IMG/VR virus record: IMGVR_UViG_3300009184_000094
Location: 1 to 36,776 of that record
Length of the DNA stretch: 36,776 bases
DNA from: a virus
Direction: 5' to 3' (one strand)
Shown here: piece after piece, positions 1,693-28,774 of the stretch
Position numbering within the stretch: the first letter of the stretch is position 1
Layout of the letters: every line of letters starts with the position of its first letter
Notes under the pieces: model-generated
Told to the model about the DNA's origin: nothing
Databases searched by the model: none
Seen by the model: the letters and a program-made list of their open reading frames with translations, nothing else
Program-made: the position numbers and the translations under genes

Positions 1693-2421
1693 ATGGACAA
1701 TTTAAAAATATTAGGACCAAGAGATTCAGGTCGTGGGATTCTTGTTGAGTATGATGCGGGTTATATCGATCCAAATGAACGAAGAAACTTATCTATGATA
1801 AGAGAAAATCGTAATATGTTAGATCATTCAAAACCTTTTGAGTTTTATGCCGTATTACAAAAATACGACACCCCAAATAGAAACGGAAGAATTTACCCTG
1901 AAAATATTTTAAAAAGAGAAGCCGAGAATTATAAAAAAATGATTCAAAAAGGAACCGCTCTTTCAGAATTAAACCACCCTGAGTCTTCTCTAATAGATTT
2001 AGATAGAGTTTCCCATATGATTACTGATATATGGTGGGAAGGTCCTGTATTGTTAGGTAAATTGAAATTACTAACAAGTCCTGGATTTCATGAAAGAGGT
2101 GTTGTTTCTACTAAAGGTGATTTAGCAGCAAACTATCTTCGTCAGGGAGTTACTTTAGGTATTTCTTCTCGTGGGGTTGGGTCATTAAAAAAAGTTGGTG
2201 AGCAAAACGAAGTTCAGGAAGATTTTGAATTAATTTGTTTTGACCTTGTATCTTCACCTTCTACACCGGGAGCTTATTTGTTTTTAGATAAAGATGATAG
2301 ATTACAATTTGAAGAAAACTTAGAAGAGGAAAATAAAAGAAAAGTTGAGTTAAATGTTGGTCCTACAGGAAATGCTTCTCTTGACTTAATGAAAAGATTA
2401 TCCGATTATTTGGATAAATAA
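1693..2421 (+). CDS. 21: Prohead core protease, T4 gp21-like
   Basis: A 242-residue serine protease of the T4 gp21 prohead maturation family. It digests the scaffold and trims the capsid protein after (I/L)-x-E. The N-terminal half contains YDTPNRNGRIYP at about 58-69, typical of the family. The likely catalytic His is in LSELNHPE (His95) and the likely catalytic Ser in LGISSRGVGS (Ser158/159). The conserved FDLVSSPSTPGA segment follows at about 183-194. The order of His then Ser agrees with T4 gp21. The next genes are the scaffold and capsid genes, the canonical order of this block. The start follows an A-rich leader and a perfect TATTTATA element. The Glu-rich tail after residue 205 may be removed during activation, which is inference. 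Confidence 0.93.
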   Translation: MDNLKILGPRDSGRGILVEYDAGYIDPNERRNLSMIRENRNMLDHSKPFEFYAVLQKYDTPNRNGRIYPENILKREAENYKKMIQKGTALSELNHPESSLIDLDRVSHMITDIWWEGPVLLGKLKLLTSPGFHERGVVSTKGDLAANYLRQGVTLGISSRGVGSLKKVGEQNEVQEDFELICFDLVSSPSTPGAYLFLDKDDRLQFEENLEEENKRKVELNVGPTGNASLDLMKRLSDYLDK

Positions 2422-2748: not shown

Positions 2749-2770
2749 TGATAAACTATTGAAAAATAAT

Positions 2771-4303
2771 ATGTCAAAAAACAAAAATGTAGTAGAGGAT
2801 GCTCTTTTCCAAATTAAAAATTTGGAGGAAGCCCTACAAGAAAATGCAAAAGGAATACTTCATTCTACAATGAAAGAAGAAATCAGACAATTAGTAAAAG
2901 AGTCTTTGAAAGAACAAGATGAGACTGAAGATGATGTCGAAGTTAGCGGTGATGAAGAAATTATGATGGGTGATGAAATACCATCAATTGATGATCAAGA
3001 TGACGAAGACGAAATAATGATGGATGATAAAATGCCAAACATGAATGACGAAATGCCAAACATGGATGATACCATCGATATGACCGACGCAAGCGATGAT
3101 GAGGTCTTAAGAGTTTTCAAAGCTATGAGTGATGAAGATGGAATAATCGTTAAAAAAGAAAATGGTATGTTAAATTTAAAAGACGGCGAAGACGAGTACA
3201 TGATCCAATTAGGAGAATCAGAAGAAGATTTCATGGGTATGTTTGATTCAGATGAAGATGATTCAGATGAAGATGATTCAGATGAAGATAATTTTTCATT
3301 CGAAATGGGTGAAGAATATTCTGAAGATGATTTCGAAGAAAAAGACGAAATTATTTTTGAATTAGAACTTGATGATAAACTTCCTATGGAAGAAGAAGAT
3401 ATGAATATGTTTTCTATAGAAGAAGAAGACGATGATGATATCGACTTAGGCCCAATGGAAGAAGAAGAAACTGATATGATGGGTTATGAAAAAATGTCAA
3501 TCGACGACGAAATCATGGAATCAATTAAAAAATCAATGAAACCAAAAGGTGTTGGGTTAGGGAAAGGTCCTAAATTCGGTTACGATAAAAAACCTAACAT
3601 GAATGGAGGTTTTAATACTAAAAGAAAAGAAGCGTTTGGTAAAGGAACAAAGGCTGTTGGTACAGGTAAGGCCAAATTCGAATACAAAGAAGGATTTGAT
3701 AAAGTAACTTTAGGTGGAAACAAAGGTGATAAATCAAAAACACATCCAGGTAAAAAAGATTACATGGATACAAAAATGATGATGAAACCTAAAAAAATGG
3801 AAACCAAAGAAGCGTCTCGTACTTACGGTAACGGATCTAAAGAAGGAAGAGGTTTAAGAAAAGGTATCACACCTAACAGAAACCTAACATTTGAATCCGT
3901 AGATAGGAGCGAATTAAAATTGTTAAGAGAAAAGAATAACGAATACAGACAAGCACTTGACGTATTTAGAACTAAACTAAATGAAACTGCGGTATTCAAC
4001 TCAAACTTAGCATACGCAACTCGTTTGTTCACTGAACATTCAACAACAAAACAAGAAAAAATCAATATCCTAAGAAGATTCGATTCTGTTGAGAGTTTGA
4101 AAGAATCTAAAGCGCTATATCAAACAATCAAAAATGAATTGGGATCAACAACAAAGGGTAGTGAATCAACAATTGTAGAATCAATTGAAAGAAATGTCGT
4201 TAAAACACCTTCAACAGGATCGGCAGTAAATTTAATTGAATCTAAAACGTATGAAAATCCTCAATTTATGAGAATGAAGGATTTGATGGCGAAAATAAAA
4301 TAA
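2771..4303 (+). CDS. 22: Prohead core scaffold protein, T4 gp22-like
   Basis: A 510-residue scaffold candidate placed directly between prohead protease and major capsid protein, as gene 22 is in T4. The N-terminal helix includes MKEEIRQLVKESLKEQ. A long Asp/Glu/Met-rich low-complexity region follows to about residue 250. A strongly basic Gly/Lys-rich section (about 255-370) comes next, then a helical C-terminal domain (about 375-510) ending MRMKDLMAKIK. T4 gp22 is much shorter (about 270 residues), so the acidic and basic low-complexity regions are extra. Many (I/L)-x-E tripeptides suit digestion by the protease. The ATG at 2771 is preferred to an in-frame TTG at 2759 because it follows an A-rich leader. 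It ends 29 nt before the capsid gene, with no promoter element between, so the two are probably cotranscribed. Confidence 0.85.
   Translation: MSKNKNVVEDALFQIKNLEEALQENAKGILHSTMKEEIRQLVKESLKEQDETEDDVEVSGDEEIMMGDEIPSIDDQDDEDEIMMDDKMPNMNDEMPNMDDTIDMTDASDDEVLRVFKAMSDEDGIIVKKENGMLNLKDGEDEYMIQLGESEEDFMGMFDSDEDDSDEDDSDEDNFSFEMGEEYSEDDFEEKDEIIFELELDDKLPMEEEDMNMFSIEEEDDDDIDLGPMEEEETDMMGYEKMSIDDEIMESIKKSMKPKGVGLGKGPKFGYDKKPNMNGGFNTKRKEAFGKGTKAVGTGKAKFEYKEGFDKVTLGGNKGDKSKTHPGKKDYMDTKMMMKPKKMETKEASRTYGNGSKEGRGLRKGITPNRNLTFESVDRSELKLLREKNNEYRQALDVFRTKLNETAVFNSNLAYATRLFTEHSTTKQEKINILRRFDSVESLKESKALYQTIKNELGSTTKGSESTIVESIERNVVKTPSTGSAVNLIESKTYENPQFMRMKDLMAKIK
3245..3289 (+). repeat. Three tandem 15-bp repeats in the scaffold gene
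   Basis: GATTCAGATGAAGAT is present three times without mismatch (3245-3259, 3260-3274, 3275-3289), coding for Asp-Ser-Asp-Glu-Asp units. It lies inside the acidic region and is in frame, so copy-number changes would only alter length. Confidence 0.95.
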
Positions 4304-4332: not shown

Positions 4333-6189
4333 ATGGGAGCATTATTAGAATCAGGTCTTGTTGGTAACATCGGTCTTAAGCACCTTAAAGTTATCAAAGA
4401 AGATACAATTAACAAATGGGACAGATTAGGGTTCCTTGAAGGTCTTAGAGGCCACCTAAAAGAAAACGTAGCTCAGTTATATGAAAACCAAGCTTCTTTC
4501 TTGATTAACGAAGCAACTGCTGATGGAGGTTCTAACGGAGCTTTCGAAACTGTTGTTTTCCCAATCGTAAGAAGAGTTTTCTCTAAATTGTTGGCTAACG
4601 ACATCGTTTCTGTACAAGCAATGAACTTACCTATCGGTAAATTGTTCTATTTTGTACCACGTATCCAAGGATACCAAGAAACAGCACCTACAACTCATTA
4701 TCCACCAATTGGATCTCCTGAGGCAGTGAACGGAAACATTAACGATCCTAACCAAGGATATCCTAACAACCCTAACGCTTACTCTAAAAACCTTTATGAC
4801 TTGTTCTACGAAGGAAATGAGGCGGCATTAGATCCTCCAGGATTATTTGATTACTCAAAAGGAAGATATACTGCTTGTACATCTAACACAACAGTTCAAA
4901 AATGGGTTGGTGATCAATTAGTAAACGCTAGTAATAATGATCCAGTTTATATTGGAAACCATAGAAAAGTTTTAATGAAACTTTGTGGATTTACAAACGT
5001 TGGAGCTGGAAAACTTATCGGTCCTGATGGTCAAGAAATGGATACAGAATCTTTCTTATCTGATTTGACAATTACTAAAGGTAATGGTTTAGGTTTAGAT
5101 GCTAGTACTCCATGTCCAGTTGGAACTGGTCCTCTATTATTTAGAGTTGTTACTCAAATCTACGGAAAAGGTATCGTACAATACGGAAACCAAAGAAAAA
5201 CTAACTTTAATTCATTTACAGGAGCTGCGGCGACTTTGAATGATTCAGGTAACGGAGGTTCTTTCTATGATATCTGTGATACAGAAGGATGTATCTATTT
5301 AGAAGTTGATTTATCTTGTCCAGCATGTCCTACATGTGGTGACGATAGTTTAGATGGTTACACAGGAACTACAATCACTGGAATTACATCAGGTACTTCA
5401 TTCAGCGCAACTTGGAGACGTTACGAAGAGTTAGAGTTTGAAGACAAAATTGGTGAGGTTTCTTTTGACCTTGAGTCAGTAACTGTATCTGTTACAGAAA
5501 GAAAACTAAGAGCACAATGGTCTCCTGAATTAGCTCAAGACGTTGCGGCGTTCCACAACATCGATGCTGAAGCTGAATTGACAGCATTGTTGTCAGAGCA
5601 AGTAGCTGCTGAGATCGACCGTGAAATTTTACGTGACTTACGTAAAGGTGCGGCTTGGAACTTACGTTGGGACTACAACGGATGGAGAAGAATTGGTGCT
5701 ACCACTTCTTACACTCAAAAAGACTGGAACCAAACTTTGATTACAGCAATCAACCAATTGTCAGCACAAATCCACAAATCTACTTTGAGAGGTGGTGCTA
5801 ACTGGATCGTTGTATCTTCTGAGGTTTCTGCCATCTTTGACGATTTAGAATACTTCCACGTATCTAACGCGGCTCCTGAGCAAGACCAATACAACATGGG
5901 TATTGAAAGAGTTGGTACATTAGCAGGTCGTTACCAAGTTTACCGTGATCCTTACTTCCCACCAAACCAAGTTTTGATCGGACACAAAGGAACTTCATTG
6001 TTAGACACAGGTTACATTTACGCACCGTATGTTCCTCTACAATTAACACCTACAATGTATAACCCATTCAACTTTACGCCAATCAAAGGTATTATGACCA
6101 GATACGCGAAAAAGATGGTAAATAATCGCTTTTATGGCCGCATTACCGTTGATGGTGTTAGAACATTCGATTTAAGAGAATTGAGATAA
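4333..6189 (+). CDS. 23: Major capsid protein, T4 gp23-like
   Basis: A 618-residue HK97-fold capsid protein. The family signature is VSVTERKLRAQWSPELAQD (about 385-403), followed by HNIDAEAELTALLSEQVAAE with its DAEAEL core and IDREILRDLR. The N-terminal propeptide of about 60 residues ends in SFLINE followed by ATADGGSNG, the expected position and sequence type of the gp21 cleavage (T4 cuts after Glu65 at a similar site). The C-terminus (RYAKKMVNNRFYGRITVDGV) is also family-like. Unusual features are a long insert around residues 130-260 and a Cys cluster, Cys315, 320, 329, 332 and 335 (CX4C-X8-CX2CX2C). By eye the gene uses more GC-ending codons (AAC, GGT, TAC) than its neighbours, as expected for the most abundant virion protein. 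A hairpin terminator follows. Confidence 0.97.
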   Translation: MGALLESGLVGNIGLKHLKVIKEDTINKWDRLGFLEGLRGHLKENVAQLYENQASFLINEATADGGSNGAFETVVFPIVRRVFSKLLANDIVSVQAMNLPIGKLFYFVPRIQGYQETAPTTHYPPIGSPEAVNGNINDPNQGYPNNPNAYSKNLYDLFYEGNEAALDPPGLFDYSKGRYTACTSNTTVQKWVGDQLVNASNNDPVYIGNHRKVLMKLCGFTNVGAGKLIGPDGQEMDTESFLSDLTITKGNGLGLDASTPCPVGTGPLLFRVVTQIYGKGIVQYGNQRKTNFNSFTGAAATLNDSGNGGSFYDICDTEGCIYLEVDLSCPACPTCGDDSLDGYTGTTITGITSGTSFSATWRRYEELEFEDKIGEVSFDLESVTVSVTERKLRAQWSPELAQDVAAFHNIDAEAELTALLSEQVAAEIDREILRDLRKGAAWNLRWDYNGWRRIGATTSYTQKDWNQTLITAINQLSAQIHKSTLRGGANWIVVSSEVSAIFDDLEYFHVSNAAPEQDQYNMGIERVGTLAGRYQVYRDPYFPPNQVLIGHKGTSLLDTGYIYAPYVPLQLTPTMYNPFNFTPIKGIMTRYAKKMVNNRFYGRITVDGVRTFDLRELR

Positions 6190-6295: not shown

Positions 6296-6976
6296 ATGAA
6301 AAAATATGTCCCATCAGAAGAAGAAATTAAAACTATCCTTAAGATGTATAATGAGGATTTAATTGGGAGTCAAACAATTTCGGAAAAAATAGGATTAAAT
6401 AAACAACAAGTGTTAAGAATACTTAAAGAAAATGGTGTTAAATTAGGTCCATCAGGTAGAAGAAATATTGGTGGTAAAAAAGTTGCGGATAAAAAATGGA
6501 GAGATTCTAATAAAGAATATTTATCTAATAAATCCAAAACTTGGTATGAAAATAACAAAGAACACAGAAAACAATATCTTAAAGAATACCGTGAAAAGAA
6601 TGTTGATAAGATTAAACAAATAAAACGTGATTACGAAAGAAATCGTAAAGCGAGAGACCCCCTCTATAAACTAATCAGTAATTTCAGAACCGCAATTTAT
6701 CAAGTATTAAAAGAAAATAACGTTAAAAAAAACGGACATTATTTTGATATTTTAAAATACACTCCCCAACAATTAATAGAACATTTAGAAAAACAATTTA
6801 GTGATGAAATGACTTGGGATAATTATGGTTTATGGCATGTCGATCACAAACACCCAATCTCATTATACAATATTAAAGAAATTGGTGATGATGAATTTTT
6901 AAAATGTTGGTCTTTAGATAATTTACAACCAATGTGGGGTTGTGAAAATATTAAAAAATCTAATAAATTATTTTAA
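6296..6976 (+). CDS. Free-standing HNH homing-type endonuclease
   Basis: A 226-residue protein. Residues about 6-45 (SEEEIKTILKMYNEDLIG, then KIGLNKQQVLRILKENGV) form a resolvase-like helix-turn-helix for DNA recognition. A long basic helical linker (about 60-120) follows. The C-terminus carries the HNH nuclease core: WHVDHKHPIS (180-189, with D183-H184) and WSLDNLQPMWGCENIKKSN (205-223, with Asn209 and Asn218 in the expected places). Enzymes of this type cut DNA at a target allele and spread by gene conversion. It sits directly after the capsid terminator and has its own start region. Its last 9 bases overlap the convergent small gene at 6968-7171. No intron is apparent in the capsid gene. 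Confidence 0.88.
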   Translation: MKKYVPSEEEIKTILKMYNEDLIGSQTISEKIGLNKQQVLRILKENGVKLGPSGRRNIGGKKVADKKWRDSNKEYLSNKSKTWYENNKEHRKQYLKEYREKNVDKIKQIKRDYERNRKARDPLYKLISNFRTAIYQVLKENNVKKNGHYFDILKYTPQQLIEHLEKQFSDEMTWDNYGLWHVDHKHPISLYNIKEIGDDEFLKCWSLDNLQPMWGCENIKKSNKLF

Positions 6977-7205: not shown

Positions 7206-7922
7206 ATGAATAAGTTAGATCAAATAATTAGAAAAGTCATTAGGGAGGCAACTGGTGATAGCACGAATTCAAGAGGATCTTATATTTTACCGTTACAACC
7301 TGGTTTTAGACCGTGGAGTAAATCTTCTTTAGGTCCATTTACCGATAAAGTTTCTGATTTTGATAGTCCTTTATTAGATTATGATAGTTATGATGGTTCT
7401 TTAGATGAAAGACTCGATGATATTAAAAAAATAGAAACGACGGCAAGAAAGGTGACTAATTTTATAAAAAATCATCCATACGCCACTTTTTCTGATGATG
7501 ACGGTAATGTTATAAATCCCTTTATGACAAAAGAAGGACAACCTTCTTTTTCAGAAAAAATGAGTCCGTTTACAGAAAAAGTTCCATTTAATGAGTGGGT
7601 TGAAGTTGCCGATAAAGGTGTTTTAAATGAAGATTTAGCCGTTTGGTTTGGGACAAAGAAGAAACCTAAGGGGTCTTCTCAACCAAAAGGTCCTTGGGTA
7701 GATATTTGTCGTAAAGTCGATGGAAAACACCCTCCCTGTGGACGACAAGACACATCTAAAGGTTCATACCCAAAATGTCGAGCTGCAGGTGTTGCCGGTA
7801 AAATGAGCGATTCGCAAAAAAGATCTGCTTGTCAACAAAAAAGAACAGCAGAAAAAAAAGATACTCAAACAGGTAAAGGTCAAAAACCTGTTATGACAAG
7901 TTATAAACCAAGAAAAAAATAA
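7206..7922 (+). CDS. Putative capsid-targeted protein with DUF5872-like Cys/Lys C-terminus
   Basis: A 238-residue protein. Residues 1-14 (MNKLDQIIRKVIRE) form an amphipathic helix ending I-R-E before Ala, the form of a T4 capsid targeting sequence with a gp21 cleavage site. The same 14-residue layout begins the protein at 9183-9650. The middle is acidic and Pro/Ser-rich. The C-terminus (about 148-213) has WFGTKKKPKGSSQPKGPWV, then C168, C178, C191 and C209 in a CRK..PPCGR..YPKCRAAG..MS pattern, then a basic tail. That pattern resembles DUF5872, a phage and large-virus domain of unknown function; the match is by eye. A basic packaged DNA-associated protein is plausible. The gene follows a perfect TATTTATA element and is 5 nt from the next gene. 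Confidence 0.75.
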   Translation: MNKLDQIIRKVIREATGDSTNSRGSYILPLQPGFRPWSKSSLGPFTDKVSDFDSPLLDYDSYDGSLDERLDDIKKIETTARKVTNFIKNHPYATFSDDDGNVINPFMTKEGQPSFSEKMSPFTEKVPFNEWVEVADKGVLNEDLAVWFGTKKKPKGSSQPKGPWVDICRKVDGKHPPCGRQDTSKGSYPKCRAAGVAGKMSDSQKRSACQQKRTAEKKDTQTGKGQKPVMTSYKPRKK

Positions 7923-7927
7923 AGATT

Positions 7928-8392
7928 ATGAATACAAATAGATTTAAACAACTTTTAGAATCTCACATGGGTAATGTAAGGCCACTATTAGTCGAACAAG
8001 TAACAACAGGTAGTAATTTAGGACCTATTAATTGTTATAAATTAATTGACATTAGAAAAATGAGTGAAGGAACTCCATCGATCGAAATAGGGTCCTCGGT
8101 TGTAAATAACATTACTCAAGAAGAACCTGGACTTTGGAGTGTTGTGGTTAAAGTTCAAAACCCATCTATGATTCCTGACAGTCCTGTAGGTGAAGTTCAA
8201 ACAGAATATGAATTAGATATTGTTCCTTTATCAAGATTTTTTAAAAGTCAATTAAATGCTGAAAATCCTGTAGATTCTAAAGAAATGATTGTGTTAACTT
8301 ATGATTCTACAGGACAAAAACATTTTTGTAAGGCTAAAGACCCAAATGATCAATCAAATATAGTAGCTGTAAATCCTGCTAGTGGAGGATAG
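7928..8392 (+). CDS. Hypothetical virion-candidate protein with leader-like N-terminus
   Basis: A 154-residue protein. The N-terminus (MNTNRFKQLLESHMGNVRPLLVEQ) offers two (I/L)-x-E sites, after Glu11 and Glu23, so it could be a capsid-targeting leader trimmed by the prohead protease. The remainder is beta-rich (CYKLIDIRKM, SIEIGSSVVNNITQ, GLWSVVVKVQNP, YELDIVPLSRFF) and Gly/Ser-ended, suggesting a compact beta domain. It is probably cotranscribed with the preceding gene (5-nt gap) and abuts the convergent lipoprotein gene end to end. No family was recognised; packaging is inference from the leader. Confidence 0.7.
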   Translation: MNTNRFKQLLESHMGNVRPLLVEQVTTGSNLGPINCYKLIDIRKMSEGTPSIEIGSSVVNNITQEEPGLWSVVVKVQNPSMIPDSPVGEVQTEYELDIVPLSRFFKSQLNAENPVDSKEMIVLTYDSTGQKHFCKAKDPNDQSNIVAVNPASGG

Positions 8393-8656
8393 TTATTTTA
8401 ATTTTAGACCTAATTTTTGATCTAATTCTTCATAAGAAAAAACAAAATTTTGGTAAAAATAATTTCTTTCTTCTTGAGTCCAAGTTGAGATTATCAACGC
8501 ATCTTCATCCAAACTTTTTTGTATTTTTTGAAGTTTAGTTAAGGTATCTGAATTATTAATTGAATTTAAAGAATAAGCATCACAACCTGCATTTTTAGAA
8601 GTTTTACAACTAAGTAATGTTAGTGACAAAATAGTTACAATTATTAGACTTTTCAT
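8393..8656 (-). CDS. Small lipoprotein
   Basis: An 87-residue protein with a classical lipoprotein signal: MKSLIIVTILSLTLLSC, with lipobox LLSC and acylated Cys17. The mature part is a roughly 70-residue helical, charged domain (TLTKLQKIQKSLDEDALI, WTQEERNYFYQNFVFSYEELDQKL). The residues after Cys (KTSKNAG) lack the acidic cluster used for surface export in many Bacteroidota, so the protein probably faces the periplasm. Phage lipoproteins of this size act in superinfection exclusion or as outer-membrane spanins. No inner-membrane spanin partner is obvious next to it, so the role is open. The gene is 2 nt downstream of the next minus-strand gene. Confidence 0.78.
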   Translation of the reverse strand: MKSLIIVTILSLTLLSCKTSKNAGCDAYSLNSINNSDTLTKLQKIQKSLDEDALIISTWTQEERNYFYQNFVFSYEELDQKLGLKLK

Positions 8657-8658
8657 TT

Positions 8659-9090
8659 TTATTGGTTTTTTTGGGTTTCTTTAATTATTGCTTCATATAC
8701 TTTATCTAACGTATTTTTTACATTAGACTTAATTGTAATTTCGGTGTTTGATCTTCTTTTTTCAGTTTCTGTATCATATAAATATGTAATTCTTTCGTAA
8801 TCTCTATTAGAAAGTCTAACATCATAATGAAAAACGTGATTTGTTATTTCGACTCTACCATAATCAATTAAGATGAAAAGATTTAACTTTTCATTAATTA
8901 TAAATCTTTTTTGAGACATGGGTGCGATCATAAAATCTGAATCTTTATCAGAAATCAATTTTACACAAATTTTAAATGCTGTTTTTTCATGTAACTCGAC
9001 TTCTTCATAAGTCTTCATTGATGAAGATCTACCAATCTTATTTAATCTTACTTTAAATCGTTTGTAGAACCTGTTGAATAATTTTTTCAT
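8659..9090 (-). CDS. Hypothetical protein next to the lipoprotein
   Basis: A 143-residue protein with a strongly basic N-terminus (MKKLFNRFYKRFKVRLNKIGR) followed by a beta-rich body (FKICVKLISDKDSDFMIAP, LNLFILIDYGRVEITNHVFHYDVRLS) and a C-terminal helix. There is no membrane segment or signal peptide. It is probably cotranscribed with the lipoprotein (2-nt gap). A TATATTTG sequence 20 nt upstream resembles the Bacteroidota housekeeping -7 element rather than the TATTTATA element, so this pair may be expressed early. No family was recognised. Confidence 0.7.
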   Translation of the reverse strand: MKKLFNRFYKRFKVRLNKIGRSSSMKTYEEVELHEKTAFKICVKLISDKDSDFMIAPMSQKRFIINEKLNLFILIDYGRVEITNHVFHYDVRLSNRDYERITYLYDTETEKRRSNTEITIKSNVKNTLDKVYEAIIKETQKNQ

Positions 9091-9110
9091 ACGTTTGTTT
9101 TATTGTTCTA

Positions 9111-9118
9111 CAAATATA
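9111..9118 (-). promoter_or_regulatory. Possible host-type promoter -7 element
   Basis: On the minus strand this reads TATATTTG, matching the Bacteroidota -7 consensus TAnnTTTG, 20 nt before the start codon at 9090. No clear TTG -33 element was found at the proper distance, so the call is weak. Confidence 0.3.
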
Positions 9119-9182
9119 TGAATTAATTAGATTAAAAAAAATTTTTGGAAAAAAAATTCTTAAAAAAGTGGTTTTATTTTTT

Positions 9183-9650
9183 TTAACAATAAGGTGGGGA
9201 ACATTTTTTATTTCCGTCTAATCCTTTGATTTTACCTTTACATACTTGAATAGCGTGGCCATTCGCATAAGCTGAAGGGTACACGTCATATTTTGCTTTA
9301 GCCGATGCCTTTCCTCTAGCACATAACTTTGTTCCTGTTTTTTTTCTACCTTCCATCATAACCATATCTCTATCATCAATGTTCATAGAGAGTTCCATAC
9401 CATCTTTTTTTGATTCATTCATTAAAAAATCAAATACTTGATCCATGTTGTTTTTTGCTTCACTAATATGATCTTGTGCCCAATCATGTCCATTTTCTAA
9501 TACAGATTCGATCATCCCATGATCCAAATCTAATAATAAATCACATTGTCTTCTCATTTGTTCTAAATTTGAAAAGAACATATATCTCGAAGATCTTTCT
9601 TCGTGAGTTTCTCTAATAACTTTTTTAATGATTGAGTTTAAATTTTTCAT
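9183..9650 (-). CDS. Putative capsid-targeted protein with YPSAYANGHA-type C-terminus
   Basis: A 155-residue protein. Residues 1-14 (MKNLNSIIKKVIRE) are nearly the same amphipathic leader as in the protein at 7206-7922, ending I-R-E before Thr, a likely prohead protease site. The middle (about 25-100) is acidic and helical. The C-terminal module (about 103-155) reads KKTGTKLCARGKASAKAKYD, then VYPSAYANGHAIQVCKGKIKG and a CSPPYC end, with Cys at 110, 137, 150 and 155. This Cys/Lys/Ala module with YPSAYAN is recurrent in phage small proteins of unknown function. It is transcribed just after the 9654-10031 gene (3-nt gap). Packaging is inferred from the leader. Confidence 0.75.
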   Translation of the reverse strand: MKNLNSIIKKVIRETHEERSSRYMFFSNLEQMRRQCDLLLDLDHGMIESVLENGHDWAQDHISEAKNNMDQVFDFLMNESKKDGMELSMNIDDRDMVMMEGRKKTGTKLCARGKASAKAKYDVYPSAYANGHAIQVCKGKIKGLDGNKKCSPPYC

Positions 9651-15618: not shown

Positions 15619-16364
15619 TATTTTTTTAATATTTCTTGAACTAAGTCAAAATATATTTTTTTATACTTTTTCAAAGAAGTTCTTATTTCTTTTGTTGATA
15701 GGTTGGTCATTTCTCTTATCTCAAATAAAATAATATTTTTGTTAAATTTGTTATTATTTGAATCTGGAAAAATTGTACCGTAATTTTCAAAAATGTCATA
15801 AATCGCAGAACCTAATTTATATTCCTGATCAGATATTATTTCAGATTCTAACGACAACCTCAATCTTTCTAAGAATTTTTTAATTATATATTCCGAACTT
15901 ATACTATCGTCATCAATATAATAACACATATTCATATTGTTTGACAGATCACTTGAGATGTCTTCGTATGATATCTTACGATTCATTTCTTTTTGGTCTT
16001 TCATAATTTGACCCATCAAATAATTTTTACATATGGTACCAAAATAAGAATATGCCTTCTTTTCTTTAGAAGGTTTAAATTTCTCAATTTTAGTCATTAG
16101 AAAAGAATGAGTATCATTATGTATTTCCTCATAATTCATATCTTTCCTGTACAATTTATACCTTCTAATTATTGAAGATATCATTTTATCTAAAGGTTCT
16201 CTCAGAAACTCATTATAAATTTTATTTTTTTCATAATGAGTTTCTGCGACTAAAAAATTTCTAACAGCTTCTTCTTCTCTTTCGGCGAAGTAATTTGTTG
16301 TGCTAGGTTTTCTACCTTTCTTTTTCTTTTCTTCTATCTCGTTAATTTCATTTACTACTATCAA
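15618..16364 (-). CDS. 55: Late-transcription sigma factor, T4 gp55-like
   Basis: A 248-residue sigma-70-type protein. Residues about 25-130 match region 2 of gp55-like factors: EREEEAVRNFLVAETHYEKN, then LDKMISSIIRRYKLY, then FKPSKEKKAYSYFGTICKNY and LMGQIMKDQKEMNRK, where AYSYFGTICKNYLMGQI corresponds to the core-binding and -10 recognition helices. The C-terminus (about 212-240, FEIREMTNLSTKEIRTSLKK) looks like a helix-turn-helix, which T4 gp55 (185 residues) lacks. It probably directs host RNA polymerase to the TATTTATA elements of virion genes, an inference. The start overlaps the end of the upstream glycosyltransferase as ATGA. It has a basic N-terminus (KKKKGRKPS). Confidence 0.8.
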   Translation of the reverse strand: MIVVNEINEIEEKKKKGRKPSTTNYFAEREEEAVRNFLVAETHYEKNKIYNEFLREPLDKMISSIIRRYKLYRKDMNYEEIHNDTHSFLMTKIEKFKPSKEKKAYSYFGTICKNYLMGQIMKDQKEMNRKISYEDISSDLSNNMNMCYYIDDDSISSEYIIKKFLERLRLSLESEIISDQEYKLGSAIYDIFENYGTIFPDSNNNKFNKNIILFEIREMTNLSTKEIRTSLKKYKKIYFDLVQEILKK

Positions 16365-17167
16365 ACTTCTTGATGTTCATAATTTATTTTTCTTTCTATA
16401 TTATAAAAATATTCTTTTTTTGCCGAGTCGATCCAAAATTTAACTTCATCGGCACTTAATCTATCATCACTATTTTTGTAATTCCAAAATAAAGAACCTA
16501 ATCTAAGATTCATATGTTTGTAACCAATTTTAGGTATTGTCATAATTCTTGATGAATTATGTGTTAATCTTAAAAAGAATTCATAACCAAAAGTTAATTT
16601 AATATTTGATTTTAAACCACCAATATTCAAAAACTTTTCTTTATTTATAATCATACCTGAAATTTGAAAATTTTGAAAATTTTGTAAAATTTCATTGGAC
16701 AAAATTCCTATCTCGTTTGTTATGTTTGCTGCGAATGTTGCCTCGTTTGTAAATCCTGCAAATACCGCTTTATCATCAACATCCACTACAATAGGTAAAA
16801 ATGCATCAACATCTTTATAAATATCCATATATTTTTTTGAAACTCTAAACCAAATTTTAGAGTACTCATCATCGAACTCTAACAAAGAAACCCAATTTGA
16901 TGATGAAACTTCAACACCTCTATTTATTTGGTTGGCATAATTTGGTTCTTCAGTCCATTTTTCAAATTTAACATTAATACCGTCAAAATCGTAATTTGTT
17001 AAATAATTCTCAAGTTGTAGTTCATCACAATGAACAATAACTAATTCATCAAATTCATCTTTTTGGTTTTTTAATGATTGAATGCTTTTATCAAAAAAAG
17101 ATTCAAAATCATAAGCGGTTCTTGTTTTTAAAGGTAATACTACCGAAATTGTATTTTTATTTTCCAT
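16361..17167 (-). CDS. Family 2-type glycosyltransferase
   Basis: A 268-residue GT-A fold enzyme. The N-terminus (TISVVLPLKTRTAYDFESFF) is the nucleotide-binding strand-loop. LLEFDDE at 95-101 takes the place of the DxD metal-binding motif. GGLKSNIKLTFGYEFFLRL is the usual second-half acceptor region with the E-F-F motif. The protein lacks a membrane anchor. It overlaps the sigma gene by 4 nt (ATGA) and follows the GT-B gene by 6 nt. The sugar and acceptor cannot be read from the sequence. Confidence 0.82.
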   Translation of the reverse strand: MENKNTISVVLPLKTRTAYDFESFFDKSIQSLKNQKDEFDELVIVHCDELQLENYLTNYDFDGINVKFEKWTEEPNYANQINRGVEVSSSNWVSLLEFDDEYSKIWFRVSKKYMDIYKDVDAFLPIVVDVDDKAVFAGFTNEATFAANITNEIGILSNEILQNFQNFQISGMIINKEKFLNIGGLKSNIKLTFGYEFFLRLTHNSSRIMTIPKIGYKHMNLRLGSLFWNYKNSDDRLSADEVKFWIDSAKKEYFYNIERKINYEHQEV

Positions 17168-17173
17168 AATAAT

Positions 17174-18232
17174 TTATTCTATAGTTTGTAGTTTATTTAA
17201 TTGATTTTCAAATCCTTCCATTCTTGTTGAAATTAACCTATCAAAAAGTTCTACAACATCGGATTCAAATTTTTCTTTAGATGGTAATGAATCAATAGTT
17301 TTTTTCATATTTTCATATAATGCTGGATTGATGTTGTCTTCTAACCAATTTTGAATAAAATCGGAAATAACATCAGTAACTATTGTTTTGTTATTAATCC
17401 AAACACCATTATCTTCATTCATCCATGTCGGTACAATATCAGGTACTAAACCAATAACAGGTATGTTCATTTTCATAGATTCCAAAGGAAAAGTTCCATA
17501 TGAACTATATTGGTCAATCCAAACTGAAACAAAACTATCTTTCATTGCTTCTGCGAATTCTTGTTCTGACAAACCTCTTAAATCTCTGAATGTGAACCAT
17601 CTATATTGTGGAAACTTAGCATAGAAAGATTTAATAAGATTTACTGTATCTCTATGATCTCTTGTATGTACGTTAATGATTGTTTTTGGTGGAAAAGGGT
17701 TCATAACAAAAGTATCTGAAATGTATGGTTCTACAACATCAAAAGAAACATTTCTCATTTGTGTTTCTAAATATTCTTTTTGTTTTTCAGATGTTGTTAT
17801 ACATTTTAAAAATCCTAATGAATTCCACGTTTGACCTGGCTGTAATGTCTCAAAGATGTAATCATATGATTGTGAAAGTACAATTTTACCACATGGTAAT
17901 TTTGTAATTTGATCCATAACGAATCCGTAAATTTCGGGAATAATAATTAAATCTTCTGGTGAGATCTCTAAGTTTGTACCCTCAATTGCTTTGTGACTTA
18001 AAGTCATATATTCTTCACCTAACCAACTTGACACTCCGTAGTAATCAGGTTTTTCGTGAAGCATTATTGAGTTGTACCCATTATTTTTTAAAGACAACGC
18101 CATTTGGTAAATATATCTTACCGAAGCTTTTGCATTTCCTTTCGTGTCTTGTACCAAGAAATATATTCTTGATTTTTTCTCCCTCATGTTGGAGATTGCG
18201 TTTTCTAATTTAGAAATTTGTTCGTTAGTCAT
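17174..18232 (-). CDS. GT-B fold glycosyltransferase
   Basis: A 352-residue protein with two Rossmann halves. The N-terminal half has RIYFLVQDTKGNAKASVRYI and LIIIPEIYGFVMDQI; the C-terminal half has SYGTFPLESMKMNIPVIGLV, in the position of the donor-binding glutamate motif of GT4-like enzymes. There are no membrane segments. It sits 6 nt upstream of the GT2 gene in the same run. A role in glycosylating virion proteins, DNA or host surface is possible, but donor and target are unknown. Confidence 0.8.
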   Translation of the reverse strand: MTNEQISKLENAISNMREKKSRIYFLVQDTKGNAKASVRYIYQMALSLKNNGYNSIMLHEKPDYYGVSSWLGEEYMTLSHKAIEGTNLEISPEDLIIIPEIYGFVMDQITKLPCGKIVLSQSYDYIFETLQPGQTWNSLGFLKCITTSEKQKEYLETQMRNVSFDVVEPYISDTFVMNPFPPKTIINVHTRDHRDTVNLIKSFYAKFPQYRWFTFRDLRGLSEQEFAEAMKDSFVSVWIDQYSSYGTFPLESMKMNIPVIGLVPDIVPTWMNEDNGVWINNKTIVTDVISDFIQNWLEDNINPALYENMKKTIDSLPSKEKFESDVVELFDRLISTRMEGFENQLNKLQTIE

Positions 18233-18238
18233 AACTTT

Positions 18239-18493
18239 TTAGAATTTATTTATTATTTTATTAACAAGTAATGTGTTAAATGATAGTTTAAAAGGTATTG
18301 TTAATTCGCTATTATTAGGTCCCAACTTTTCATCCACTTCTTCTACTTCGGATAAAATTGTTTCTAACATCATTTTTACAACTTCATATTTAACAATGTG
18401 AATTTGAGTTTCACCTGACGGGTTTTCAATTTGTAATTGTTTATCTAAAACATCTAAATCAATGTAATAGTTTTCATTTAAAATTTTAATCAT
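18239..18493 (-). CDS. Small hypothetical protein
   Basis: An 84-residue protein: strands MIKILNENYYIDLDVLD and QIHIVKYEVV, a helix KMMLETILSEVEEVDEKLG, and a beta-like C-terminus LTIPFKLSFNTLLVNKII. It is packed between the HAD-like gene (2-nt gap) and the GT-B gene (6-nt gap), which supports coding. No family was recognised. Confidence 0.7.
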   Translation of the reverse strand: MIKILNENYYIDLDVLDKQLQIENPSGETQIHIVKYEVVKMMLETILSEVEEVDEKLGPNNSELTIPFKLSFNTLLVNKIINKF

Positions 18494-18495
18494 TT

Positions 18496-19143
18496 TTAAA
18501 GTTTTTCTATCAATTTTTTAAACTCAGATAGATTTGATATTTCATATTCTGAATTTATGTGTTTATTGTAGTTAGTATTGTATTTTACAACAATCTTCCC
18601 ATCTAACTTATTTAATAATAAAGAAGGATCTGCGGTAAGTAAAACATCTATTTCATTCCACATGTCATTTTTTGTGATTTCACTGTAAAATATGATTTTT
18701 TCGATTAAACAACCAAACTTTGAAAGAAAAAATAGGGATGCTGGTTTAGATTTACCAATCTCATTTGATACGATTAAAAAATTGTACTTGTCTCTAAACT
18801 CGACATACAAATCATTTAAAGTGTTAAATGAATTTATTTCTGTTGATGGAGAATGTCCAAATAACTCCATGGTATATTCTTCATACATGAAACTAAAAAG
18901 TTCATCTTTATTTTTAAATGAAAAGTGTTTATCAAGTTCTAAACTAGTCACATCGGACAGAATTTCATATACAAAATTATCTTCTTCAAGATCAATTGAT
19001 TCAGTGTTTCCTGACAAATCAACATTGTATGTTTGAACTGAAAAAGTATTATTTTCTGACTCAATCAAATACTTTTCGTAGATTTGTGTAAATTTTGTGA
19101 TATTGTCTCTTAAGACTCCATTTAAATCAATTGCTATCCTCAT
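18496..19143 (-). CDS. HAD-like hydrolase-related protein with altered motif I
   Basis: A 215-residue protein beginning MRIAIDLNGVLRDN, the HAD motif I position. The nucleophile Asp6 is present, but the second acid of D-x-D is Asn8. A strand with YNFLIVSNEIGKSKP follows, resembling motif II (Ser) and the motif III Lys. Later LLTADPSLLLN may be motif IV with one Asp. A large cap-like insertion with Asp/Glu/Phe lies between. HAD enzymes act on phosphate esters, often nucleotides. Here activity is uncertain because of Asn8. The ATG at 19143 is preferred to one codon earlier (19146) as the second of two adjacent Met codons; either fits. It overlaps the phoH gene end. Confidence 0.7.
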   Translation of the reverse strand: MRIAIDLNGVLRDNITKFTQIYEKYLIESENNTFSVQTYNVDLSGNTESIDLEEDNFVYEILSDVTSLELDKHFSFKNKDELFSFMYEEYTMELFGHSPSTEINSFNTLNDLYVEFRDKYNFLIVSNEIGKSKPASLFFLSKFGCLIEKIIFYSEITKNDMWNEIDVLLTADPSLLLNKLDGKIVVKYNTNYNKHINSEYEISNLSEFKKLIEKL

Positions 19144-19855
19144 CATATTTTTTTAATATTTTAGTAATTATAGGATTTCTAACACCGTCTTTTTCGCCAA
19201 ATTCAAAAACTCCAATTCCTGGAATTCCGTTGAACCTTAGTATCGCATCATAAAGTCCTGAGTGTTTTTTGTCTTTATATCTATCGGTTTGCTCAATATC
19301 TCCCGATATAAAAAACTTACTATTGGCTCCAATTCTTGTCAATAATAATTTCATTTGTTTTGGTGTTGCGTTTTGAGCTTCTTCGAAGATTAAAATTGCA
19401 TTGTCTATTGTCATACCTCTCATGTATGCCAAAGCAAATACTTCTATAATATCAGCCTCTTTTAATTTTTCTCTCGAATCTTTTCCAATTATTTTATTCA
19501 AAAGATAATAAGATGGAAAAATGTACGGGTCTAATTTTTCTTCTAAATTTCCCGGTAATGCTCCTAATTTTTCTTCGGCCTCTACGGCTGGTCTTACAAT
19601 TATTATTTTATCATATCCGTTACCACCCTCCAATAATAGATCCACCGCAGTTTTCATTGCTATGAAACTTTTACCAACTCCCGCAGGACCAGAACAAATT
19701 GTTATTTGATTGTTCAAAAGTGTTTCATAATAAATTTTTTGATTTTCAGTTAAAAATTTACTTTTTGATTTTTTTTTAACTACTTGTTCGATTATGTCTC
19801 TTTTGGAATTTAGAAGAACTTCATTATCTTCTGTTTGTTGTGTTTTTTTTCTCAT
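19127..19855 (-). CDS. phoH: PhoH family ATPase
   Basis: A 242-residue protein of the PhoH family, a RecA-like ATPase widespread in marine phages and of unsettled role (phosphate stress or RNA metabolism). Walker A is GPAGVGKS (56-63), Walker B is ILIFEEAQN (154-162), and the family stretches IIIVRPAVEAEEKLGALPG (85-102), AYMRGMTIDNA and ISGDIEQTD are present. Length is normal for phage PhoH. It lies between a glycosyltransferase (3-nt gap) and the HAD-like gene (overlap). Confidence 0.95.
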   Translation of the reverse strand: MRKKTQQTEDNEVLLNSKRDIIEQVVKKKSKSKFLTENQKIYYETLLNNQITICSGPAGVGKSFIAMKTAVDLLLEGGNGYDKIIIVRPAVEAEEKLGALPGNLEEKLDPYIFPSYYLLNKIIGKDSREKLKEADIIEVFALAYMRGMTIDNAILIFEEAQNATPKQMKLLLTRIGANSKFFISGDIEQTDRYKDKKHSGLYDAILRFNGIPGIGVFEFGEKDGVRNPIITKILKKYDEDSN

Positions 19856-19858
19856 TTA

Positions 19859-20581
19859 CTATGAATAAAAGTTTATGGTTTTTGAAAATCCTTCCTCTTC
19901 ATGATAACAGGTTAATTTGTCTATAAAAATTCCTGTTTGACTATTAGAGGTTAGAAATTCTTTAGTTCTTTCCCACAAGTCCGCATCTGCAGGTAACCCA
20001 ACTTTACCTGTTTCTAAATATAAATCCCTGTATCGTAATGGGATTTCTTTAAAATTCATACAAACTGAAGAGTGTATTAAAGAACTGCTTGATGGTAAAA
20101 ATTCATTATATTTCTTTTTAGTTAGTATATTTGGTAAATAATTATTTGGGGATAAACGAGTTGATTTAGTACAAATCCAATTACTATTAGTTTCATTAAT
20201 GCATTTTGATATTTCGTCTAAATGGTCATTAGACCACCAATCATCATGATCTAAATGACAAATATATTCGTAACCCTCATTTAGAGCCATTTCTATACCA
20301 ATGTTAGTTGCATTTACACCACCATATAGCCAAATTGCTCTTGGGATAAGATAATTATCCCTTTCTTTTGCCTCTAATAAATTTGTAAAAAATATTTTTT
20401 TACCGTCATATTTTTTTAAAATCTCTAAAACTTCGATTTCGTTTTCATATTTATCACCCATTAAAAAAATTTTAAAATTTTGGTAAGTTTGGTTGAAAAC
20501 GGAATCTAAGGCTCTCGTTAAATATTTTGATGTATTACCATCTTTTCTGTGATAAGTTGGTATAACTATGGCTATTTTCAT
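19859..20581 (-). CDS. Family 2 glycosyltransferase
   Basis: A 240-residue GT-A enzyme with the classic start MKIAIVIPTYHRKDGNTSKY, a substrate-loop region LYGGVNATNIGIEMAL, and the metal-binding motif HLDHDDWW (109-116; D-x-D-D). GLPADADLWERTKEF is the usual acceptor-loop segment with the ED-like motif replaced by D-A-D. There is no membrane segment. It is followed at 3 nt by phoH. AGTATTTAACC lies about 20 nt upstream, a poor match to the late element. Confidence 0.87.
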   Translation of the reverse strand: MKIAIVIPTYHRKDGNTSKYLTRALDSVFNQTYQNFKIFLMGDKYENEIEVLEILKKYDGKKIFFTNLLEAKERDNYLIPRAIWLYGGVNATNIGIEMALNEGYEYICHLDHDDWWSNDHLDEISKCINETNSNWICTKSTRLSPNNYLPNILTKKKYNEFLPSSSSLIHSSVCMNFKEIPLRYRDLYLETGKVGLPADADLWERTKEFLTSNSQTGIFIDKLTCYHEEEGFSKTINFYS

Positions 20582-20611
20582 TTTGTTTTTTTAAGGTTAA
20601 ATACTAATAAT

Positions 20612-21382
20612 TTAATTCAATAACATTTGGTAGTTCTTAGGAAGATATACGTTATTTTCAGGTTCTATTAGTGTATAGGTTATGTTTTTATTTTCTCTTT
20701 TAAATAAATCTTTTCCTGATTCTATAACTGAAAGAATGTGATTATCATTTAAAAATTCATCTCTATTGTATTCTTGGTGTGAAAAATTTTTAATTTTATT
20801 TTTGATAAAATCAACATCACCAAAATATGAAAAATGCCAACCACCTTTTTCAATGATTGTTCCGTCTTTTATTCTAATGTGTTGAGGTAAATTTGTTTTA
20901 GAATAATGTCTAAAATTACATATTTTTGCCCAATGCCACCTACCATTAAATTTACATTTAATATTATAGTAGTACATATCTTGACCTAAATTGTGAGGAC
21001 CGTCTATCAAACCTTTATTTTTAATCTCACTCAACGTATCAACATCTGGTATTTCATCAACATCACTAACAATGATTATATCTTCTTCATCCAAGTTTAA
21101 TTTTGAAATACCTAAATGAATTGAGTTTCTTTGGTTATATTCATTATTCCAAGCGTTTGTATCATTAAGGTCATCTACAACAATATGAATAATTTTATGA
21201 AGATATTCTTTAAAATTTTCTTTATTTTGTTCGAAAAACAATTCTTTATCGTTTCCTGTAAATGTTTTGGTTGATTCAACAAGTACAAAAAAATCTACAA
21301 CATCATTTAATTCTTTTAACCTAAACTCTAACATTTTCATTTCATTATAAAAAATGAAACAATCTATTATTTTTCTATCCAT
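20612..21382 (-). CDS. GT17-type glycosyltransferase (N-acetylglucosaminyltransferase-like)
   Basis: A 256-residue protein that reads as GT17 (the family of eukaryotic MGAT3). The start IIDCFIFYNEMKMLEFRLKE, VVDFFVLVESTKTFTG, the motif AWNNEYNQRNSI, and SDVDEIP (106-112) as metal-binding D-x-D are all family hallmarks, as is KGGWHFSYFGDVDFIKNKI near the end. The donor is probably UDP-GlcNAc by family, but the acceptor is unknown. It starts 6 nt after the methyltransferase gene and ends 30 nt before the next gene. Confidence 0.88.
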   Translation of the reverse strand: MDRKIIDCFIFYNEMKMLEFRLKELNDVVDFFVLVESTKTFTGNDKELFFEQNKENFKEYLHKIIHIVVDDLNDTNAWNNEYNQRNSIHLGISKLNLDEEDIIIVSDVDEIPDVDTLSEIKNKGLIDGPHNLGQDMYYYNIKCKFNGRWHWAKICNFRHYSKTNLPQHIRIKDGTIIEKGGWHFSYFGDVDFIKNKIKNFSHQEYNRDEFLNDNHILSVIESGKDLFKRENKNITYTLIEPENNVYLPKNYQMLLN

Positions 21383-21388
21383 ATTTTT

Positions 21389-21964
21389 TTATTTTTTAAT
21401 AATTGATGTGACGCTATCAGTATAATCATTTTTATTTTTTGTAAAAATTTCCACATCTTTAAATTCTTTTTTAATTGATTCTAAATTATTTACTAGTTTT
21501 TTATTAGTTAAAAAATCATATGTTGTAGTTTCACTATTAACATATTCTGGTCTGAATGATGTGTGTAAATCCTCAACCACATAAAATCCGTTGTTTTTTA
21601 ATTTTGGCCATAACAACTCTAAAGATTTTTGCTGATGAGAAGTTAAATGACTTCCATCATCAATAATTATGGTAAAAAAATCATCGTCGAATAATTTTGA
21701 TAAACTCGGATCGTCCTGTGAAATTTTATTATAAACAAATCTTTCGTGTTTAAACTTGACATCAATTATGTCTAAACAATAAATTTTTGCATTTTCAAAA
21801 TACTCTAACCACGTAAATACTGAAGATCCATTTAAAAAACCAATTTCAAGAATGTTAATTTTTTCAAATCTAAGATCTTTAAACTTTTGATCGTAAAATT
21901 CCATAAAATTATGGTGCGTTGATTTATCAGTACCATTTTTTAATCCTATTTCTTGTAGTGTCAT
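21389..21964 (-). CDS. Class I SAM-dependent methyltransferase
   Basis: A 191-residue Rossmann methyltransferase. GTDKSTHHNFMEFYDQKF is a conserved substrate loop of the sugar-methyltransferase-like group. SAM-binding motif I is NILEIGFLNGSSVFTW (38-52), the acidic ribose-binding residue lies in YCLDII, and DDGSH (102-106) is the metal/substrate motif seen in MycE-like sugar O-methyltransferases. It is next to GT17 (6-nt gap), so it may methylate the sugar added by the neighbouring enzymes. There is a 64-nt gap upstream, with no strong promoter seen. Confidence 0.8.
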   Translation of the reverse strand: MTLQEIGLKNGTDKSTHHNFMEFYDQKFKDLRFEKINILEIGFLNGSSVFTWLEYFENAKIYCLDIIDVKFKHERFVYNKISQDDPSLSKLFDDDFFTIIIDDGSHLTSHQQKSLELLWPKLKNNGFYVVEDLHTSFRPEYVNSETTTYDFLTNKKLVNNLESIKKEFKDVEIFTKNKNDYTDSVTSIIKK

Positions 21965-22028
21965 ATTATTTTTTGTTATTCCATTTATTTGTAAAGTTCC
22001 TCATCAAACCATCGGTCATTTTATAATT

Positions 22029-22709
22029 TTATACAATATTCCATTTTTTTATCATCTCATGAATTAACCCATCAGTCATTTCATGTTTTTTTTCATTCTC
22101 AATAAAATGATGACTTTTACTAAGAAGGTGTGTCACTTTAGAGTCGGTTATAAGTGCGTGTTTTATTCTATGTTTGATCAAAGTCATAGCATAGTCATTA
22201 TCTTGATACCAAAATTTAAATTTCTCATCAAATCCCCCTATTTGGTCAATTACACTTCTTTTAACTAAGATTGACCATCCCGTGATTTCGTAAGATGTTC
22301 TAAATCCATAATAAATTTTAATGTTTCTATTAAATTCGTTATGTCTAAACCAAGTATCATCAATCGGGCTCATTGATAAAAGATCTTTATCAAATTCGTT
22401 TGCTTCAATCATTTTGTCAAGAAAGTTTTCGTGGTATATTGTATCATTGTTTGAAATTAATATCCATTCATTTTTACAAAATTCTAAACCAATATTTAAA
22501 AATCGATTATAATTAAATTCTTCATCAGGTTGAATTACCAAGACATTAGTTTGAGGATAATCAAACTTTCTATCTTTGTTTGTCTCAACTAAAATTATAT
22601 TAAATTTGTGTTCGGTTGTACTATTATTAATACTATCAATACAATCGTTATTCATTTTAAAAATTGAGTCGTCTTTCACATAACTCAATATTATAACATC
22701 TATTTCCAT
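22029..22709 (-). CDS. Family 2 glycosyltransferase
   Basis: A 226-residue GT-A protein: EIDVIILSYVKDDSIFKMN, then ILVETNKDRKFD, FNYNRFLNIGLEF and ILISNNDT (84-90; N-N-D as metal site), then GGFDEKFKFWYQDNDYAMTL with the D-N-D acceptor element. The start is coupled to the end of the previous gene as TAATG (1-nt overlap). It belongs to the rhamnosyl-like GT2 type; donor and acceptor are unknown. Confidence 0.85.
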   Translation of the reverse strand: MEIDVIILSYVKDDSIFKMNNDCIDSINNSTTEHKFNIILVETNKDRKFDYPQTNVLVIQPDEEFNYNRFLNIGLEFCKNEWILISNNDTIYHENFLDKMIEANEFDKDLLSMSPIDDTWFRHNEFNRNIKIYYGFRTSYEITGWSILVKRSVIDQIGGFDEKFKFWYQDNDYAMTLIKHRIKHALITDSKVTHLLSKSHHFIENEKKHEMTDGLIHEMIKKWNIV

Positions 22710-24232: not shown

Positions 24233-24380
24233 TCTCGTTTTCTATTTCTTTTAATATTTTTTCTAAAATTTCTTTTTTTTCTATCATGTATCGATTCCAC
24301 CACCCATCGTTATAAGACGACATAATCAATTCTTGATTTACAGAATCCAATTCATTTATTATTTTTTCTTTTGTTTTCAT
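24198..24380 (-). CDS. Small hypothetical helical protein
   Basis: A 60-residue charged protein (KEKIINELDSVNQELIMSS, then WWNRYMIEKKEILEKIL), probably two helices. It overlaps the stop of the dUTPase gene by 4 nt (ATGA) and the start of the two-domain glycosyltransferase by 35 nt. The ATGA coupling and typical codon use favour a real gene, although it is short. No family was recognised. Confidence 0.5.
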   Translation of the reverse strand: MKTKEKIINELDSVNQELIMSSYNDGWWNRYMIEKKEILEKILKEIENENDNNRILNKKS

Positions 24381-25698: not shown

Positions 25699-25701
25699 TT
25701 C

Positions 25702-27622: not shown

Positions 27623-28015
27623 TTATACAGGTCTATCAAACTTTGCATTTACAATCACTTTTGACATACTTTTATCTCCATTCGGATTATAGTTTGGTCT
27701 TGGTTCATTAAATGTTTCTGCCGATGGTTGATAATAAGTTATTCTATCGACTCTGAATAATCTCCATCCTGGTAGTGGTTTTTTACCTAAATATGCGGTG
27801 TGAGAAGCTCCCTCGTAATCCCAAGCTCTTAACACAGGATTATCAGATTTACTATACCCATAACATACAGGTTCAATAACTCTAAGTCCTCTACCACCTG
27901 GCTCATCACCTTCATAGTAAATTACAACTCTCTTTCGATTCCTAATAGAATCAACAATATTATCAATTGCTGCTACCTCAAGAATAAGATTTTCAAGTGT
28001 ATTGTAAAGTTTCAT
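27623..28015 (-). CDS. WYL-like domain protein with a possible capsid-targeting leader
   Basis: A 130-residue protein. The first 13 residues (MKLYNTLENLILE) resemble T4 capsid targeting sequences such as those of internal proteins and end I-L-E before Val. Residues about 17-100 read like a WYL ligand-sensing beta barrel: AIDNIVDSIRNRKRVVIYYEG, then GLRVIEPVCYGYSKSDN, VLRAWDYEG and WRLFRVDRITYY, matching the pattern v-i-Y..r-v-i-P..l-a-w-d..g..r-l-F-r-v-d-r-I. WYL domains bind nucleic acid or ligands in regulators of anti-phage systems. No DNA-binding helix-turn-helix is present here. The stop of the 28015-28302 gene is coupled to this start (TAATG). Domain call is by eye. Confidence 0.72.
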   Translation of the reverse strand: MKLYNTLENLILEVAAIDNIVDSIRNRKRVVIYYEGDEPGGRGLRVIEPVCYGYSKSDNPVLRAWDYEGASHTAYLGKKPLPGWRLFRVDRITYYQPSAETFNEPRPNYNPNGDKSMSKVIVNAKFDRPV

Positions 28016-28303: not shown

Positions 28304-28774
28304 TTAAATTATTTTTTTTATTATTTGGTTTATCCTTTGTAAGTCTTCTCTAATTTTTATATCCTGAACGAAAGTACTATGTTCTTTGGATGGTCTATTC
28401 ATATCGGCCAACCAACCCATGCTATCGATTAAATCATCATTTACATCATCAGGCATGTAATCGTTTTTTACATCATTATGAAATTCATCACCACTTCTTA
28501 GATCTCCAATAGTCTTTTCAACCCAATTTTTAACATAGTCAGCACCATTTAATATATATGGAGCATCTTTACCATCACCAGCATAATTATCAAACCAATT
28601 TTTAATTCTACCTAATTGTTGGTAAGTCACATGTCCTGATTTTCTTAATTCTTCATTTCTTTTGTGACCTTGTATTGTTGGGTCAGAATTTGGAAACATG
28701 TCATAACATTTTTGCAAATACTCCGTAACCTCTTTAGGTAAAGGGATAGTTTTATTATATAAATTACTATTCAC
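28304..28774 (-). CDS. Conserved-looking hypothetical protein
   Basis: A 156-residue protein with motif-like stretches: TIPLPKEVTEYLQKCYDMF, GHKRNEELRKSGHVTYQQLG, RIKNWFDNYAGDGKDAPYIL and NGADYVKNWVEKTI. The VTYQQL-RIKNWFD region is a type I recall from other marine T4-like phage proteins of unknown role. The C-terminus ends in INQIIKKII, similar to the hydrophobic core of the leaders at 7206 and 9650, but at the opposite end. It overlaps the upstream gene by 8 nt. Confidence 0.7.
   Translation of the reverse strand: MNSNLYNKTIPLPKEVTEYLQKCYDMFPNSDPTIQGHKRNEELRKSGHVTYQQLGRIKNWFDNYAGDGKDAPYILNGADYVKNWVEKTIGDLRSGDEFHNDVKNDYMPDDVNDDLIDSMGWLADMNRPSKEHSTFVQDIKIREDLQRINQIIKKII

Follow-up and report, generated by a model that had tools for sequence, protein, structure and literature searches.

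Short N-terminal leaders ending in a T4-type prohead-protease motif recur on many unrelated phage proteins

In the viral DNA that we analyzed (the window: 36,776 nucleotides, which make up the whole of the 36.8-kb IMG/VR record IMGVR_UViG_3300009184_000094), we found that two otherwise unrelated proteins, F1 and F2, begin with similar 14-residue leaders. The initial annotation had described these two proteins; the observation is confirmed and proves to be much larger than two proteins. Based on sequence comparisons, the leaders are very probably capsid-targeting propeptides that act like those of the T4 internal head proteins and that serve an unusually large, modular cargo set. A few interchangeable tags on unrelated proteins would probably load a large and varied cargo into the head together with the DNA.

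The open reading frames of F1 and F2 lie exactly where the initial annotation had placed them, on opposite strands (Table 1). Its claim that the proteins are unrelated beyond the leader agrees with our finding that the sole notable BLASTP match between them is weak and anchored at the N-terminus (E=3e-4, 27% identity). Both leaders had also been said to end according to the (I/L)-x-E rule, and E14 is invariant in 18 aligned orthologues of F1 and in 24 aligned orthologues of F2. All 27 of the 27 distinct F2 orthologues have a leader at this place, of either the short or the long type; because the orthologues retain the leader, its likeness in the two proteins is not due to chance. In a wider set, P3 is I/L in 97% and P2 takes seven residue types. 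The Cys/Lys-rich C-terminal modules that had been noticed were located in both proteins. AlphaFold models of F1 and F2 have mean pLDDT values of 52 and 44 (low confidence), and a search for related solved structures found none for F1 or F2.

Table 1. Coordinates of head genes, leader-bearing genes and candidate sites in the window (↓, predicted cut)
Feature	Position	Strand	Remarks
Prohead protease, Peptidase S77 (gp21-type)	1693..2421	+	PF03420 E=9e-22; phrog_207 E=2e-42
Probable scaffold/core protein	2759..4303	+	Position between protease and capsid gene and acidic composition only
Major capsid protein, Gp23-type	4333..6189	+	tblastn to annotated Gp23-type capsid proteins
Leader protein F1	7206..7922	+	238 aa; leader, then a middle domain, the internal site and a Cys/Lys module
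F1 leader MNKLDQIIRKVIRE	7206..7247	+	14 aa; predicted cut before A15
Internal predicted site of F1, VLNE↓DLAVWFG	7620..7631	+	Ahead of Cys/Lys module
Cys/Lys module of F1	7632..7919	+	phrog_23735 E=7e-7; related to the DUF5872-like module in gp084 of phage immuto
Third leader protein, second leader dialect	7928..8392	+	Between the F1 and F2 genes
Leader MNTNRFKQLLESHMGNVRPLLVE of third leader protein	7928..7996	+	23 aa; predicted cut before Q24; dialect D2
Leader protein F2	9183..9650	-	155 aa; leader, then a helical domain and a Cys/Lys module
Cys/Lys module of F2 (LCARGK...YPSAYANG...)	9186..9350	-	phrog_27331 E=7e-14; preceded by invariant E, mostly M-x-E↓G
F2 leader MKNLNSIIKKVIRE	9609..9650	-	14 aa; predicted cut before T15
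WYL-like protein, candidate leader MKLYNTLENLILE↓VA	27623..28015	-	PF13280 22.0 bits versus cut-off of 21.8
Protein with leader-like C-terminal helix DLQRINQIIKKII	28304..28774	-	I-R-E precedes helix

The leader genes are found in the neighborhood of a T4-type head cluster (protease, probable scaffold, and capsid). The gp21-like protease that had been proposed for the window is indeed an S77 prohead protease, in which two motifs are conserved, L-[VI]-E at residue 19 and I-x-E at residue 38. Family searches with the probable scaffold protein gave no usable match. The capsid propeptide ends in FLINE↓A at residue 60, and LINE↓A is identical in 61 aligned capsid sequences and in all distinct N-termini listed; this predicted cut fits the T4 gp21 rule L/I-X-E. 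In T4, the internal protein propeptides are 10–19 residues long, follow the rule L/I-X-E and are required for head incorporation (PMC9026906). Every sequence-level feature of T4-type capsid targeting that we tested was found here, namely a common extension, an (I/L)-x-E end, an S77 protease and the capsid motif. Between the capsid and F1 genes there is also a gene (6296-6976) that by eye resembles an HNH-type endonuclease; 28 sequences in the relative set have homologues of it.

A capsid search yielded 80 relative loci, and four long relatives were tiled (272, 296, 229, and 152 kb). With a leader profile trained on three relative contigs and tested on the fourth (leave-one-genome-out), we found 23, 21, 12, and 6 leader-bearing genes per held-out contig, comprising 22, 20, 11, and 6 distinct mature families. 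As controls, the profile matched 1/1171, 0/1215, 4/915, and 0/674 internal Met positions and shuffled N-termini gave an expectation of 0.1–0.7; the overall chance expectation is approximately 0–1 per contig. The earlier interpretation is partly upheld: the reading of the leaders as capsid-targeting, prohead-protease substrates is strongly supported by sequence, ejection of the proteins with the DNA would follow the T4 example, and the size of the set had to be revised to far more than two proteins. Many of the leaders in these relatives are of a longer form, such as the 22-residue MKRIIRLTESDLARIVRRVINE, the second half of which matches the window leaders. The DNA pattern for this long form is present in at least 120 stretches in viral contigs and had 0 matches in 257 Gb of prokaryotic genomes; among the matches listed, the long form sits at the N-terminus in 96/99 ORFs, which represent 61 mature clusters. 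The second dialect, D2 (RFKQLLESxxGNVKPLxxE), is present in 78 stretches in viral contigs, with 0 matches in the same prokaryotic genomes. When we compared the 23-residue leader in the window to named phages by tblastn, we found no match, in a search that is limited by its short query. The two dialects are interchangeable, since homologous mature proteins can carry one or the other. For the clearest swap (L312:3243-3566 versus L331:445-789), BLAST on the mature parts gave an alignment of 53% identity that begins with the first mature residue of each protein, and the leaders are plainly different. A literature search, incomplete in coverage, found no description of these leaders.

To quantify the cut motif, we used an unbiased set, in which leaders were picked by their first half only and those that fetched their own locus via a site-containing pattern were excluded; counts of P3 and P1 over all loci were set aside, as some loci were fetched by a pattern containing those positions. 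In the unbiased long leaders (n=135), P1 is E in 134/135 and P3 is I/L in 119/135 (V in 14 and M in 2), P2 is free (with an entropy of 2.7 bits among cluster representatives) and P1' is varied. In the second dialect, P1 is E in 12/13 and P3 is I/L in 12/13. As judged from these conserved residues, the leader end follows the T4 protease rule. Two features count against our preferred explanation: P1' is mostly Q/N/S/E/D and seldom A, and P3 is V or M in 12% of the unbiased long leaders. At the internal site of F1, E142 is invariant in the alignment of 18 orthologues; in F1 orthologues with LAVWFG or LGVWFG, E precedes the motif in all and P3 is mostly I/L. At the F2 module, P3 before the invariant E is usually M, so a cut there is only possible.

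We found S77 above the Pfam cut-off in 21 of the 27 leader-bearing contigs longer than 90 kb. In the six leader-bearing contigs of this size without S77, Gp23 and the T4 portal were likewise not found, as would be expected if these contigs lacked the head module. The distance from tail sheath to head module is approximately 37–82 kb in contigs having both, and on this basis three of the six plausibly end ahead of the head module; in two of the six, the tail sheath was not found either. The remaining one of the six, the 215-kb contig L306 (G033), has leaders and a tail sheath, and S77, Gp23 and the T4 portal were not found where the head module is expected. Truncation explains this contig less well, and it counts against the leaders being prohead-protease propeptides.

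An uncleaved docking helix, which would bring the proteins to the replication compartment, portal, tail or membrane and would have the final E within the helix, fits some of the same data, as the hydrophobic pairs at i, i+1, i+4, i+5 suit an amphipathic helix and the leader is predicted to be helical (with low confidence) in both F1 and F2. However, two otherwise unlike leader families have (I/L)-x-E alone in common, with the middle residue free, the homology of a swapped pair can begin directly after the motif, and the motif is also conserved inside F1 and ahead of a C-terminal helix; we consider such a helix improbable. A further reading, in which the 5' ends of genes are exchanged as recombination cassettes or translation signals and the encoded peptide has no role, is highly improbable. 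Leader genes are clustered and leaders swap between genes, which would agree with such exchange, but leaders with identical amino acids on different cargo have a median DNA identity of 88% (lowest 74%), and the F1 and F2 leaders are identical at 31/42 nucleotides with many synonymous differences, indicating that the likeness is kept at the protein level. In addition, leaders recur in frame within fused proteins: in L011, L013, L017, L039, L003, L004, L023, and L047, fused relatives of F1 contain an entire long leader within their chain, and the one in L023 has no Met just ahead of it.

If the leaders do target the head and are cleaved there, the proteins could be structural core or scaffold pieces and not ejected effectors. 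We regard this as unlikely, though deserving serious weight: some of the cleaved core peptides of T4 are kept in the head or leave it (PMC9026906), and the Cys/Lys modules occur within podovirus head-assembly gene clusters. On the other hand, the cargo varies from one relative to the next and some of it has peptidoglycan-binding, LysM, or M23-type domains, unlike fixed structural parts. When we annotated 200 cluster representatives of the leader carriers, most matched nothing, and the few matches were to these three kinds of domain and to endolysin-like proteins. Annotation assigns a function to hardly any of the cargo and so reveals no role as delivered effectors, which counts against our preferred explanation. 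By eye, HExxH metallopeptidase motifs are present in two carriers (L229:1962-2999 and L271:1128-1976). Two suspected kinds of cargo were rejected: ArdA-like proteins, for which there was one weak match among 94 proteins and no match when the likely candidates were scanned singly, and ADP-ribosyltransferases in LR756508, suspected from YRG motifs, which had no Pfam or named PHROG support.

Small leaderless ORFs encoding these two Cys/Lys modules are also present close to head genes in the podoviruses HTVC027P and P-SCSP2, in which we found no S77 match. The modules of F1 and F2 score below the gathering threshold of DUF5872 (PF19197) and have no Pfam match at E<=1; resemblance to this family is seen in the module of immuto gp084 (23.0 bits) and in that of P-SCSP2 (52.1 bits).

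For capsid-targeting propeptides, we infer targeting, cleavage in vivo, retention with the DNA and ejection as follows. During head assembly, the N-terminal amphipathic helix would bind the prohead core. At head maturation, the S77 protease would cut after (I/L)-x-E, as suggested by the motif and its conservation, and the mature protein would be freed inside; internal sites would split F1 and release its Cys/Lys module as a small basic polypeptide. By analogy with T4 only, mature cargo would stay with the packaged DNA and enter the host with it. The tag would serve a large and shifting cargo, with approximately 6–23 proteins per long contig examined and at least two interchangeable dialects.

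In T4, IPI, IPII, IPIII and Alt (PMC9026906) likewise are unlike proteins with a common short N-terminal propeptide that ends in (I/L)-x-E, and T4 has a gp21-type S77 protease and a Gp23-type capsid with the same motif. In contrast to T4, with four carriers, there are 6–23 per contig here; the leaders are other sequences, of two dialects and 14–23 residues or more, fused proteins have internal copies, and leader-like helices also occur at the C-terminus. The giant phages SPN3US and phiKZ also have prohead-protease propeptides on many head proteins, and 15 N-terminal residues are identical in gp53 and gp54 (PMC5694885). However, their cut rule is A/S-x-E and several of their propeptides exceed 100 residues (PMC5694885), and gp53 and gp54 are paralogues, whereas the mature parts here are unrelated. 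It is an even call whether a large-phage lineage, with probable Bacteroidota hosts, has a modular delivery system in which interchangeable head-loading tags in several dialects sit on dozens of fast-changing proteins, with internal tags in polyproteins, such that the tag predicts the injected set from sequence. If so, the tag would show which proteins a large group of uncultured phages carry in their heads, and probably also which early proteins they inject, and it would indicate where, and probably when, hundreds of unannotated genes act. T4, with its few internal proteins, would then represent a minor instance of a loading system that is general and evolvable, and new packaging tags would become available.

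What large phages inject besides DNA, a long-open question, would become testable on the cultured relative Flavobacterium phage immuto_2-6A (NC_055915.1; laboratory host, Flavobacterium sp. LMO8), which has S77 and similar leaders. Its gp083 and gp230 are unlike proteins with a common 22-residue leader (20/22 residues and 48/66 nt in common) ending in I-T-E. Immuto differs from the window in having yet another leader sequence and both Cys/Lys modules in one protein, gp084 (L136:11184-11654), in which a leader ending ...EILSE is followed by a PSAY-type module, LQE↓D and a second module. The second module is related to that of F1 (E=6e-7), and gp084 resembles the F2 module only in its motif (E=0.16 in BLASTP). 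All three proteins are annotated as hypothetical, and a literature search of incomplete coverage found no proteomics of immuto.

Other starts of this kind were seen elsewhere. In the 484-kb phage LR756508.1, a run of approximately 250-residue proteins with YRGT-like motifs (L138:25715-41423) includes several with MRLKEILLEN-like leaders, and elsewhere in this locus many small proteins have a MKLTERKLRNLVKEVLKE-like start; from their sequence, these leaders look to be another dialect in a huge phage. The S77 ORF of LR756508.1 (L138:4499-6223) has an intein-like insert (LAGLIDADG_3, with a weak Intein_splicing match). MKII(I/L/V)TExQ begins 64 genes in many loci (e.g., L144:5642-6160), and its I-T-E suggests a further leader type; because this search was anchored at the N-terminus, its zero internal count carries no meaning.

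Further along the window, I-x-E is conserved in five sequences of the WYL-like protein while P2 varies, and in the family of the protein with the leader-like C-terminal helix, I/L-x-E precedes the helix in 5/5 sequences seen (IRE, IKE, ITE, LKE, IKE). The gene at 225-941 was rejected as a protease substrate, as the N-terminal E is missing in several orthologues. Several glycosyltransferase-like and other sugar-related proteins were recognized by eye among other genes at 16361-26916, and a 1266-residue protein at 29719-33519 has long Thr-Pro repeat tracts (TPTPTPT).
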